From Arthrobacter gallicola (GTDB lineage: Bacteria > Actinomycetota > Actinomycetes > Actinomycetales > Micrococcaceae): a stretch of DNA of 64,000 bases. The number at the start of each line of letters is the position of its first letter. Position 1 is the first letter of the stretch. This document shows, piece after piece, positions 23,891 to 64,000 of this stretch. The notes beneath the pieces were generated by a model that saw only the letters and a program-made list of their open reading frames with translations, was not told the origin of the DNA and made no database searches. The stretch spans positions 124,001-188,000 of the forward strand of contig NZ_JACSQD010000007.1 in NCBI RefSeq assembly GCF_014836775.1, written 5' to 3'. The position numbers and the translations under genes are program-made.

Positions 23891-25714
23891 TCAGTCTTTG
23901 GCAGTGCCCGGGGCATCGCTCGTGCCTGTGTCGGTGCCTGTGGCTTTATCGCCGTGGTCGCCCAGCAACGATTCGCGCACGTGCCGCCGCAGGACCTTAC
24001 CGATCAGCGAGCGCGGCAGATCCGGAATCTGCACGATCCGGCGCGGAACCTTGTACGCGGCCAGTTCGTTGCGGACGAAGGATCGGAGTTCATCGGGGTC
24101 GAACACGGCGTCGGGCTTGGCCACGACGGCGGCCACCACATCCTCGCCACCGCCTGTGCGGGTCAGGCCGACGACAGCTGCTTCCGCCACCGCGGGGTGG
24201 CGCTTCAGCGCTTCCTCCACCTCGGAGGGAGAAACATTGAACCCGCCCGTAATGATCAGTTCCTTGATCCGGTCGCGGATGGTGACAAAATCGTCGTCGT
24301 CCACTGAGACGATATCTCCGGTCCGGAACCAGCCGCCCTCGAGCAGGGCCGCCCGGGTTTCAACCGGTTTATTCCAGTACCCCTGGAACACCTGGGGACC
24401 GCGGATCAGCAGCTCGCCCGCTTCCCCGCGCTTCCGCTCCTTGGTGGGATCCTCCGGATCAACCACCTTGATGTCAGTGAGCGGGAACGGCACCCCCACG
24501 GTGCCGGGTTTGCGGGTCGGGCCCATGGGATTGCCCAGCGCGACCGGGGAGGTTTCCGTCAGGCCGTAGCCCTCAATCAGATAACCGCCGGTCGCTTTTT
24601 CCCACGCCTCCACGGTTGCCGCCGGGAGGTTCATGGCACCGGAGATGGCGAAGCGGACGCCCTTCAGGGACACCCCGGCTTCATCGGCGCCGGCCACTAT
24701 CCGGTCATAGATCGGAGGGACCGCCGGCAGGAAGGTTGGCGGAGTCTTACGGGCGGCTTTCAGGACCAGCTCGACGTCGAACTTCGGAAACAGGACCAGG
24801 CACGCCCCGATGCTCATGGCGAAGGTCAGGCTGAGGGTCAGCCCGTAGGCATGGAACATCGGCAGGACGCCGTAAACCGTTTCCTTGCCCGGGCGCACCC
24901 CGGGAATCCAGGCGCGCCCCTGGGCGGCGTTGGCCATGAGGTTTCCGTGCGTGAGCATGGCACCCTTGGGATCCGCCGTGGTTCCGGAGGTGTATTGAAT
25001 GGCCGCCAGGTCCCCGGCCGTGGGCTTGGGATGCCGCCGCGGCAGCGGCCTGTTGTCCAGGAGCTTTTTCCAGGTCAGGACCCGGCGTCCGGCGCTGCGG
25101 GGCGGCTTGTCCGCCGCCAGGGCTTTACGGCTTTTCCGAGCTGCCGGCAGCGGAAGCTTCAGCGCCAGCTGGGTCATCCGGGGCATGGCACTGATCAGGT
25201 CCACCGACACGATCGTGCGGACCGGGATATCCGCGGGAAGGGACTGGATCCGGTCTGCGGTTTTGTCCCAGACGATGGCCACGGTGGCACCGTGGTCCTC
25301 GAACTGGTGACGCAGTTCCCGGTCGGTGTACAGCGGATTGTGTTCCACGACGACGGCGCCCAGGCGCAGCACAGCATAAAAGGCGACGACGTGCTGCGGC
25401 GAGTTGGGCAGCACCAGCGCAACCCGGTCCCCGGCACGGACACCGAGGCGTTTCAGTCCGGCCGCCGCGCGGCGGATCTGTTCACCCAGGTCACGGTAGG
25501 ACGTGACGGCACCGAAAAACTGCAGCGCCGGTTTGGACCCGTAGCGGCTGACTGACGCCTCCACCATGTCCACGAGGGAACCTTCGGGCAGCGACAGATC
25601 CGCCGGCACACCCTCGGCATAATGGCGCGTCCAGGGGCGGTGATGGTCGAAGAGTGCTTTGGCAGCTTTACTCACGGCATTGACTCTATCGGTTGCGGCG
25701 CCGGGGTCGGGCAC
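23891..25714 (-). CDS. Long-chain acyl-CoA ligase (AMP-forming)
   Basis: The product has 607 residues. Motifs of the adenylate-forming family are the P-loop-like YTSGTTADPKGAMLTHGN, the YGLTETSPV aromatic/ATP motif, the TGDIV hinge region and the C-terminal GKVLRR lysine segment. It activates a carboxylic acid, probably a fatty acid, as acyl-AMP and then acyl-CoA. The start at 25714 is the longest; a GTG near residue 11 or 14 would give a more usual N-terminus. The gap to the AI-2E gene contains a short direct repeat (CAGTCTTTGGC) in the coding tail. Confidence 0.88.
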   Translation of the reverse strand: MPDPGAATDRVNAVSKAAKALFDHHRPWTRHYAEGVPADLSLPEGSLVDMVEASVSRYGSKPALQFFGAVTSYRDLGEQIRRAAAGLKRLGVRAGDRVALVLPNSPQHVVAFYAVLRLGAVVVEHNPLYTDRELRHQFEDHGATVAIVWDKTADRIQSLPADIPVRTIVSVDLISAMPRMTQLALKLPLPAARKSRKALAADKPPRSAGRRVLTWKKLLDNRPLPRRHPKPTAGDLAAIQYTSGTTADPKGAMLTHGNLMANAAQGRAWIPGVRPGKETVYGVLPMFHAYGLTLSLTFAMSIGACLVLFPKFDVELVLKAARKTPPTFLPAVPPIYDRIVAGADEAGVSLKGVRFAISGAMNLPAATVEAWEKATGGYLIEGYGLTETSPVALGNPMGPTRKPGTVGVPFPLTDIKVVDPEDPTKERKRGEAGELLIRGPQVFQGYWNKPVETRAALLEGGWFRTGDIVSVDDDDFVTIRDRIKELIITGGFNVSPSEVEEALKRHPAVAEAAVVGLTRTGGGEDVVAAVVAKPDAVFDPDELRSFVRNELAAYKVPRRIVQIPDLPRSLIGKVLRRHVRESLLGDHGDKATGTDTGTSDAPGTAKD

Positions 25715-25784
25715 CCGGTGTGAGGTAGATGCAGGCCCGTCATCGTTCGTTCGCCCTCCTAGGGAATCACCGTGGGTTCTCCGC

Positions 25785-25790
25785 TACACT
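25785..25790 (+). promoter_or_regulatory. -10 element for the riboswitch transcript
   Basis: TACACT at 25785-25790 predicts a transcription start near 25797, right at the 5' edge of the yybP-ykoY-like structure. No clear -35 is seen. Confidence 0.5.
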
Positions 25791-25798
25791 GTCAATCT

Positions 25799-25950
25799 GA
25801 AGGGGAGTAGCTCCGGTCTTATTTCCAATTTTAGTGACGGCGCAGGCCACACCGAAACTGGCGGTAATTCCGAGGCCTGTCGACATACTGGCTGCAGCAG
25901 CAGCCCGGCAGTCCACCGCAGGTGCACCGCACCCGGCGAGCGAGACCTTC
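25799..25950 (+). promoter_or_regulatory. yybP-ykoY-type manganese riboswitch
   Basis: The leader begins AAGGGGAGTAGCT, contains CGACATACTGG, and ends GCGAGACCTTC, the conserved blocks of the yybP-ykoY element in the right order. GAAGG (25799-25803) pairs with CCTTC (25946-25950) to close P1. The class binds Mn2+ and switches on Mn2+ exporters. A GGCCAG/CTGGCC hairpin follows (25951-25974), then CCGGAGC/GCTCCGG (25972-25993). With no T-tract, control may be at translation. Confidence 0.82.
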
Positions 25951-26012
25951 GGCCAGTATCCCAACAGCTGGCCGGAGCCCCCTGCCGCTCCGGCCATGAC
26001 CAGGAGCAGTTA

Positions 26013-27140
26013 GTGACTACCCCACCGGTGCCAGGGCCTATGCCCCCTGGCCAACCCCGGCCCACCCCTGCCGACCGCCGCCGCTGGCGGCAATACCTCG
26101 CCGATGAACAGGCGGAAGCTGCAACCTACCGGTATCTCGCCGAGCGCCGGGACGGGGAGGAACGGGACATCCTGCTCGCCCTTGCCGAGGCCGAAGGACG
26201 CCATGAGGAACACTGGCGGAAACTGCTGGGCCCGGAAGCGGATAAGCCGGTCCGTCCGTCCTTCCGCAACCGGGTTTTGGGGCTGCTGGCCCGGCGCTTC
26301 GGCTCAGTCTTTGTGCTGGCTCTCGCGCAGCGGGCGGAAGGGCGTTCGCCCTACAGCACCGAGCCCAGTGCCACCAGCGCCATGGCCGCGGATGAGCAAA
26401 TCCATGAGGAGGTGGTCCGCGGGCTTGCGACACGCGGACGGGTCCGCCTTTCCGGAAACTTCAGGGCCGCCGTCTTCGGCGCGAACGACGGCCTGGTCTC
26501 CAATCTGGCCCTGGTGATGGCAATCGGTGCCACCGGCGTTTCAAGCACCTTTGTGCTTTTCAGCGGTTTTGCCGGCCTGCTGGCCGGTGCATTGTCCATG
26601 GGCGCGGGCGAATATGTCTCGGTGCGTTCGCAGCGGGAACTGCTTGAGGCGTCCCGGCCAACCCAGATCACCCTTGCCGCGGCCAAGTCGCTGGACATAG
26701 ATGCCAACGAACTTGTCCTGGTGTACCGCGCCCGGGGTATGTCCCAGGAGGCAGCCGAACACCGCGCTGCGGAACGCCTGGGACTCTACAGCTGCGACTG
26801 CGATCCGTCGCTGTCGCTGCAGCCGGAAAAGCAGGAGGAGTCCGGCGAAGAGCATGAAACGGTAGGGACCGGCCTTGGCGCCGCGCTCTCAAGCTTCTGC
26901 TTCTTTTCCTCAGGCGCCATCATCCCGGTGCTGCCCTATATCTTCGGGATGGAAGGACTGGCCGCCGTGGCACTGTCCTGTGCCCTTGTTGGCCTGGCAC
27001 TGCTGGTGACCGGCAGCGTGGTTGGTTTGCTCTCCGGTGCGTCTCCGCTTAAACGCGGGCTGCGTCAGCTGGCCATCGGACTGGGCGCTGCGGCCGTGAC
27101 CTATGCACTCGGACTGCTCTTCGGCACCGGAGCCGCCTGA
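26013..27140 (+). CDS. Ferritin-like/VIT1-CCC1 fusion transporter
   Basis: The product has 375 residues from the GTG at 26013, with CAGGAGC upstream. The first 140 residues form a rubrerythrin/ferritin-like helical domain rich in Glu and His (DEQAEAATYRYLAERRDGEE, AEGRHEEHWRKLL, and ADEQIHEEVVRGL). The rest is a VIT1/CCC1 membrane domain (FGANDGLVSNLALVMAIGAT, then MGAGEYVSVRSQRE and C-terminal helices), which moves Fe2+ or Mn2+. The Mn2+ riboswitch in its leader argues for manganese export. The open frame extends upstream to 25659 but has no coding signal there. Confidence 0.88.
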   Translation: MTTPPVPGPMPPGQPRPTPADRRRWRQYLADEQAEAATYRYLAERRDGEERDILLALAEAEGRHEEHWRKLLGPEADKPVRPSFRNRVLGLLARRFGSVFVLALAQRAEGRSPYSTEPSATSAMAADEQIHEEVVRGLATRGRVRLSGNFRAAVFGANDGLVSNLALVMAIGATGVSSTFVLFSGFAGLLAGALSMGAGEYVSVRSQRELLEASRPTQITLAAAKSLDIDANELVLVYRARGMSQEAAEHRAAERLGLYSCDCDPSLSLQPEKQEESGEEHETVGTGLGAALSSFCFFSSGAIIPVLPYIFGMEGLAAVALSCALVGLALLVTGSVVGLLSGASPLKRGLRQLAIGLGAAAVTYALGLLFGTGAA

Positions 27141-62817: not shown

Positions 62818-62836
62818 AGTTTTTGCCTCTCCCAAT

Positions 62837-63003
62837 GCCTACGAGGTGAGCTGTCGGATTCGGATGGGAGTCACCCGGCCGCCGGACTGCGAAGTCCGGC
62901 AACTTAACCCCTAGGGCTTCTTTCGAAACCCGAAATTGGTTCCCCCGCCTCTGCCATGCGATTTTGCGAACGGATCTCAAACGGTGGCAGAGCTCGGCGA
63001 TCC
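62837..63003 (-). promoter_or_regulatory. ydaO-type c-di-AMP riboswitch
   Basis: On the minus strand the leader carries ATCGCCGAGCTCTGCC, then GGCAGAGGCGGGGGAACCAA, then TAGGGGTTAAGTTGCC, and finally CCGACAGCTCACCTCGTAGGC, which are the conserved blocks of the ydaO-yuaA element in order. The class senses c-di-AMP and usually turns its genes off. The ribosome site GGGAGAGG follows immediately. Confidence 0.9.
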
Positions 63004-63872: not shown

Positions 63873-63891
63873 GTGGTTCCCTCTCTACAAA

Positions 63892-64000
63892 GCCTGCGAA
63901 GTTAGCTGTCGGATTCGAGTAGAGAACTCGGCCCACGACGCGCGGGAGTACCGCTGTGCGGAATTCCTGTGCTGCTCGGAGGCTTCACCCCAAGACAGTG
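63892..64000 (-). promoter_or_regulatory. Second ydaO-type c-di-AMP riboswitch, 3' part
   Basis: Reading leftwards from the window end, TTGGGGTGAAGCC is followed by CCGACAGCTAACTTCGCAGGC, the 3' half of the ydaO element. The 5' half is outside the window. It controls the M23 gene. Confidence 0.85.

Follow-up and report, generated by a model that had tools for sequence, protein, structure and literature searches.

Comparative evidence for a yybP-ykoY (Mn2+) riboswitch upstream of an MbfA-like ferritin-like/VIT1 fusion gene in Arthrobacter

Introduction

Why would the gene for a protein of a type studied as an iron exporter stand behind what looks like a manganese riboswitch? The question is raised by a locus of Arthrobacter gallicola, contained in the stretch of 64,000 nucleotides that was analysed here (the window), in which a leader of yybP-ykoY appearance precedes a gene joining a ferritin-like domain to a VIT1/CCC1 transporter domain. 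Both partners are of recognised kinds, the RNA being a true representative of an established riboswitch class and the protein a fusion of a known type. Among the matches listed for the open-access literature no account of the two together was found; subscription papers lie mostly outside that literature and an earlier notice is possible.

The host genome has 3.65 Mb, and the nearest named homologue of the fusion protein among the loci returned is that of A. luteolus (98% identity). The fusion gene is a single gene, both flanking ORFs being on the opposite strand; the upstream neighbour is acyl-CoA-ligase-like and the downstream one MFS-transporter-like (names given by eye, from the translations). 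Elsewhere in the window the c-di-AMP riboswitch (RF00379) is matched twice above its gathering score, at 62822-62978 (-) and at 63876-64000 (-). They are separated by about 0.9 kb and share a strand, and the second is truncated at the end of the window. The features of the locus are collected in Table 1.

Table 1. Features of the riboswitch leader and of the fusion gene, in window coordinates
Feature	Position	Strand	Basis
-10 box TACACT	25785..25790	+	TANNNT fixed upstream of GAAGG
Predicted yybP-ykoY (Mn2+) riboswitch aptamer	25799..25950	+	RF00080 16.9 bits, sub-threshold; covariation; model R1
Outer switch helix, 5' strand GAAGG	25799..25803	+	pairs with CCUUC 25946-25950; 38/38 leaders, both strands selected on
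L1 block GGGGAGUAG	25802..25810	+	38/38 leaders, selected on; one-mismatch search gives the same loci
Inner helix GCUC	25810..25813	+	pairs with GAGC 25938-25941; paired in 38/38; C-G to U-A in 4 leaders
L3 loop ACAUACU	25883..25889	+	letters as in X. oryzae L3; 6/7 columns invariant in 38 leaders, not selected on
P3 distal hairpin GGCUGC / GCAGCC	25890..25905	+	4/6 pairs changed on both sides; 96.0% of cells paired
Segment A CUUCGGCCAG	25947..25956	+	overlaps outer helix 3' strand; A:B paired in 93.7% of cells, 38 leaders
Segment B CUGGCCGGAGC	25968..25978	+	predicted to pair with A (OFF) or C (ON)
Segment C GCUCCGGCC	25987..25995	+	predicted to pair with B (ON)
Shine-Dalgarno AGGAG	26002..26006	+	read in the sequence; retained 5' of the start codon in aligned leaders
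MbfA-like fusion gene	26013..27140	+	GTG start at 26013, 375 aa
N-terminal ferritin-like domain	26067..26432	+	about residues 19-140; invariant E32, E61, H64, E109, E128, H131
VIT1/CCC1 transporter domain	26460..27113	+	residues 150-367; PF01988 E 9.4e-56

Results

The aptamer in the leader

A sequence-only reading of this leader had described three yybP-ykoY blocks, a GAAGG/CCTTC closing stem and a -10 box at its edge, and all of these were found at their places. The check that it had proposed, a covariance-model match of the leader to the Rfam yybP-ykoY family, fails at the gathering score: RF00080 covers 25785-25928 (+) at 16.9 bits, where gathering requires 45 (E 0.011 for 421 nt and 4227 families). 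In the whole genome this family gives a single match at E <= 10 (E 0.022), and it is the sole reasonable Rfam family at the leader, where matches to mir-602 and RRE were dismissed as chance. To read the failed threshold as the absence of a riboswitch was rejected, since the proven mntP and alx switches of Escherichia coli fail it as well; RF00080 scores mntP with 41.6 bits and gives no match to alx at E <= 1. Failing the gathering score is therefore no argument against membership of the class, and in practice the score is no criterion of membership.

Related leaders were obtained from two sets of loci that share genomes. The blocks are present within 400 bases upstream of the fusion gene in 30 of the 30 loci with the best protein matches (59 genomes, including the host's own). 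Of the 80 named loci, 29 have them in the same interval and the other 51 lack the riboswitch. As loci were chosen by GAAGGGGAGTAG[CT] and GAGACCTTCGG, selection in part explains why these blocks, like the outer helix, are invariant, and this invariance does not count as independent evidence. A search allowing one mismatch returned the same 29 of the 80 loci, an isolated match at -759 in L092 being set aside. This gave 46 distinct leaders, of which 38 were aligned and eight near-identical ones were omitted by choice.

Across the 38 aligned leaders the L3 loop and the P3 stem show little or no change, and P2, the tip of P3 and P4 vary in length and letters. Within L3, A25885 is invariant in all 38, a position that was no criterion of selection; judged by sequence comparison, it corresponds to the Mn2+-sensing adenosine, which is A48 in Xanthomonas oryzae and A41 in Lactococcus lactis. 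The crystal structure from X. oryzae has the same L3 loop, with A48 contacting Mn2+ through N7, according to the available text of PMC6754395.

A structure of 37 pairs is kept in 95.4% of the 1404 cells of the alignment, with changes on both sides in 14 pairs. Shuffled alignments reached the observed value in none of 500 rounds for paired cells, covarying pairs, covarying cells and covariation score, and in one of 500 for pair types; sliding the partner strands out of register lowered the pairing to 34-48%. The inner helix is retained even in the four leaders that deviate to GTAGT, the deviation being compensated by GAACGAG. The outer helix has no support from covariation because it never varies and was selected on. 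Upstream of it, a TANNNT motif that was not selected on lies 14 to 16 bases before GAAGG in 46 of 46 distinct leaders (scanned from -18 to -11), against a background of 0.0008 per position further upstream. A -10 box at this distance should place the transcript start at about the 5' end of the outer helix.

Recognition of proven switches and of other transporter leaders

The 38 aptamers were used to train a covariance model, R1, whose E-values are rough because its calibration was short. The window copy, itself a member of the training set, scores 114.4 bits. R1 also finds the proven E. coli switches of mntP (37.8 bits, rough E 1.5e-8) and alx (22.9 bits, rough E 7.8e-5). At E <= 0.001 it matches 20 of 396 genomes of the phylum, namely the host's own and 19 others. 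Every one of the 19 matches in those other genomes is followed by a cation-transporter gene: GDT1 in 12 cases, Na_Ca_ex in five, MntP in one and a P-type ATPase, its gene cut by the end of the locus, in one. In nine of these 19 loci ORFs overlapped, and the more hydrophobic or the longer one was scanned, the Pfam E-values deciding.

Recognition of proven switches by R1, together with the genes next to its matches, is the ground for the identity of the sensor. The comparative evidence thus strongly supports the Mn2+ riboswitch named in the sequence-only reading, and the aptamer of Table 1 is very probably a complete member of the yybP-ykoY class. For 18 of the 19 phylum loci (L119 left out) the RF00080 gathering score was reached by none, and when these 18 and the locus L171 were searched at E <= 5, two of the 19 gave a match. 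Given that this threshold misses the examined actinobacterial switches and two proven ones of E. coli, the manganese regulons of Actinomycetota are probably under-annotated.

A proposed switching platform

Three segments, A, B and C, run from the 3' end of the aptamer, which A overlaps, towards the start codon. The potential of A to pair with B (25968-25977) extends over ten bases, and GCUCC of segment C (25987-25991) is complementary to GGAGC (26003-26007) in the ribosome site, a pairing that would give the OFF state. In the 38 leaders A:B has 22 double-changed cells against 7.9 in shuffles (0/500 as high); its three covarying pairs and its pair types are not above the shuffles, which were as high in 273 and 295 of 500 rounds, respectively. 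Pairing of B with C is found in 96.5% of cells, with double changes in three of six pairs. No intrinsic-terminator-like site occurs in 25600-26200, and a platform of the intrinsic-terminator kind was rejected.

The part behind the aptamer was folded with CCUUC available (aptamer open) or unavailable (aptamer formed). Mean modelled accessibility of the ribosome site over the 38 leaders rises from 0.150 with the aptamer open to 0.278 with it formed, increasing by more than 0.05 in 22 leaders and decreasing by as much in none. The mean gain of 0.127 compares with 0.030 for shuffled platforms (sd 0.023, maximum 0.105, 60 rounds). The leader in the window itself gains little in this model (0.00 to 0.10), since B:C remains in competition with a truncated A:B hairpin; in its minimum-energy fold this short hairpin remains and the ribosome site is covered. 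Folding whole leaders with the helices enforced discriminated poorly (0.28 vs 0.20, the expected direction in 26 of 38), as a residual A:B hairpin is still possible there. These folds are consistent with a Mn2+-ON switch acting on translation, and a manganese-dependent translational riboswitch is described for E. coli mntP in the accessible part of PMC11647493.

Distribution in the family and link to the fusion gene

Applied with stricter filters to 197 genomes of the family, R1 gave 73 matches, which fall in 72 genomes and 14 of 32 genera, and none in the other 125 genomes. A hand tally from match positions and a reading of the DNA placed 66 of the 73 directly before the fusion gene, six before a gene of the Na/Ca-exchanger type and one at a contig end. 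The fusion protein was matched at E <= 1e-80 in 195 of the 197 genomes. The survey of manganese exporters covered two families, GDT1 and MntP. GDT1 exceeded the cut-off in none of the 197 genomes and gave one weak match; MntP exceeded it in three, two of which reach it only once adjacent pieces are included, and had five matches at E <= 0.001. The host genome has neither of them at E <= 0.001. Taken with the tally of R1 matches, these counts indicate that the riboswitch-controlled cation transporter of this family is, in most of the cases found, the fusion.

The 51 named loci lacking the riboswitch blocks gave no R1 match below E 0.4; another 18 loci from relatives, part of which encode VIT1 alone, likewise yielded none (best E 0.21). 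Since the riboswitch is absent from 51 of 80 named loci and undetected by R1 in 125 of 197 family genomes, control of the fusion by manganese is not universal.

The same type of riboswitch precedes a gene of the Na/Ca-exchanger family in L171 (G005:C5), L161, L168, L170, L202 and L203, an assignment resting on a PF01699 scan for L171 and on similarity to L171 for the other five. The genome G005, which belongs to Arthrobacter like the window, has both a riboswitch-exchanger and a riboswitch-fusion locus. At L201 (G568:C4:52600-54700), counted among the 66 loci with the riboswitch directly before the fusion, an istAB-like insertion splits that gene, as judged by eye from the ORFs; this genome also has a strong match to the fusion protein, its place lying outside the matches listed.

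Leaders without the riboswitch

In 40 of the 51 riboswitch-less loci (among L032-L111) two direct AGG-N4-CC boxes were observed about 23 bases apart. Some 80-250 bases separate them from the start of the matched coding sequence that follows, and inspection by eye shows a TANNNT-like -10 box on the downstream side of the boxes. Such paired boxes occur in none of the 29 riboswitch loci, in none of 80 control stretches and not at all in 20 shuffles of the 51, the pattern having been tuned on these same 51 loci; an earlier form of it matched 14 of the 51 riboswitch-less loci and one of the 29 with the riboswitch. The boxes resemble an operator of the DtxR/IdeR/MntR kind, and an RNA regulator may have been exchanged for a protein regulator between leaders.

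The fusion protein

The fusion of a ferritin-like and a VIT1 domain, also claimed from the sequence, is borne out by Pfam, by conservation of the di-metal ligands and by fold matches. All of 25 homologues carry the VIT1 domain PF01988. Rubrerythrin (PF02915) matches the window protein at residues 32-72 below cut-off (E 0.0017), and nine of the 25 homologues at E <= 0.01 (best 1.7e-6). The six ligands listed in Table 1 are invariant in 25 of 25 homologues, in the E / ExxH / E / ExxH arrangement of ferritin-like di-metal sites.

The transporter domain is matched by PDB 6iu3 in sequence (E 8.6e-11) and in fold (Z 20.8, rmsd 2.0, 151 residues). The AlphaFold2 model of the whole protein is of moderate confidence (mean pLDDT 67.7, pTM 0.58). 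In the fold search, 42 of the 48 matches listed besides two VIT1 rows belong by their titles to the ferritin-like di-metal superfamily, with Z of at most 9.4, which taken alone is middling or weak for helical bundles, and many rows span both domains. Foldseek gave VIT1 alone below E 0.001, the ferritin-like matches coming mainly from the second fold comparison.

A CDCDP motif lies in a loop of the transporter domain (residues 261-265). Its C261, C263 and P265 are invariant or nearly so in 39 alignment rows, and homologues from other families lack it. The motif is a possible metal-binding site.

Discussion

The reading that we favour, at a probability of roughly 0.7, is that a Mn2+-sensing aptamer switches on the translation of an MbfA-like fusion which exports Mn2+ and possibly Fe2+ too. 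The identity of the aptamer, the conserved potential for A:B and B:C pairing, the gene architecture and the conservation of the ligands come directly from the computation. The ligand Mn2+, the ON direction, the translational level, the ion transported and the role of the ferritin-like domain are what we infer, and the system would work as follows. Cytoplasmic Mn2+ would be sensed by the yybP-ykoY aptamer at the extreme 5' end of the mRNA. When Mn2+ is lacking, CCUUC would belong to segment A, A would pair with B, and the free segment C would cover the ribosome-binding site. Binding of Mn2+ would dock the aptamer and form the outer helix, removing CCUUC from A, upon which B would pair with C and the ribosome site would be released. 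The transporter domain would then move the metal out of the cell, and the cytoplasmic ferritin-like domain, which has a complete set of di-metal ligands, may first capture the metal or oxidise iron.

Export of Mn2+, and perhaps also of iron, by the fusion is plausible in view of its linkage to the riboswitch, the scarcity of MntP and GDT1 and the precedent of MbfA. The alternative that the fusion is mainly an Fe2+ exporter like MbfA, its Mn2+ riboswitch being a form of cross-talk by which an excess of manganese is read as metal overload or as an Fe/Mn imbalance, seems unlikely to us. It would agree with the export of iron by MbfA of Bradyrhizobium and Agrobacterium and the ferroxidase activity of its ferritin-like domain, as given in the accessible portions of PMC4902296 and PMC7762939, with the invariance of the six di-metal ligands and with the boxes like DtxR/IdeR operators before riboswitch-less genes. 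However, boxes of the DtxR family could equally suit an MntR, R1 elsewhere in the phylum precedes cation transporters that include the known manganese exporter families MntP and GDT1/UPF0016, and both of these families are nearly absent from the family genomes sampled. In Arthrobacter and related soil bacteria, the place of an RNA of this kind immediately before the gene suggests that this iron-exporter type of protein is used to remove excess manganese.

The two other alternatives concern the RNA. That the aptamer has kept its fold and yet senses another ion, or is a decayed regulator that no longer switches, is very improbable: the low Rfam score, a ligand assigned by comparison and the small modelled release of the own leader would fit it, whereas L3 has the letters of the X. 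oryzae manganese sensor and is near-invariant while neighbouring loops vary freely, the stems and the pairings of the platform covary, and a -10 box keeps its place beside the aptamer in every distinct leader. We also regard it as improbable that the switch works on transcription, for instance through Rho, instead of translation. Rho does act at E. coli mntP alongside the riboswitch, going by the available text of PMC11647493, and a Rho site would stay invisible to the terminator search described above. Nevertheless that search found no intrinsic-terminator-like site, and segment C or its neighbourhood can reach the ribosome site in various ways among the leaders, as seen by eye and in the folds, which favours control of translation.

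A wider proposal, to which we give an even chance, is that in Micrococcaceae the MbfA-type fusion is the principal Mn2+ exporter in place of MntP/MneA, that its control has been exchanged in evolution between the riboswitch and a protein of the DtxR/MntR type which acts on the paired AGG-N4-CC boxes, and that the ferritin-like domain handles Mn2+ and not only iron. A type of protein studied as an iron exporter becomes linked to manganese by the present locus, in bacteria whose sampled genomes are nearly devoid of two well-known manganese exporter families. Moreover, the metal specificity of ferritin-like/VIT1 fusions is made directly testable.

Comparison with known systems

The window leader shares with members of the yybP-ykoY class (RF00080; E. 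coli mntP and alx, X. oryzae, L. lactis) the outer switch helix, the L1 block, the L3 loop with its Mn-sensing A, four stems and a 3' GAGACC. It differs by its place before a ferritin-like/VIT1 fusion, by a score below Rfam gathering, by the long, variable P2 of Arthrobacter leaders and by an A/B/C platform whose segments would vie for the ribosome site. The manganese exporters GDT1/UPF0016 (MneA) and MntP have the same riboswitch class upstream in other Actinomycetota, but they belong to protein families different from that of the window fusion.

The VIT1 of PDB 6iu3/6iu4, presumably of plant source, is a vacuolar iron transporter that resembles the transporter domain of the window protein; its solved chain of 234 residues has no ferritin-like domain. 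In Rhodococcus, VIT-family proteins are said to export iron and/or manganese, and the riboswitch named in the accessible part of that study is of the c-di-AMP type (PMC10986025). In architecture the window fusion resembles MbfA of Bradyrhizobium and Agrobacterium, which has the same order of domains, N-terminal ferritin-like followed by VIT1/CCC1. From the portions available of PMC7762939 and PMC4902296, MbfA is an Irr-regulated iron exporter whose cytoplasmic ferritin-like domain shows ferroxidase activity and is itself required for transport, whereas the window fusion has a Mn2+ riboswitch upstream.
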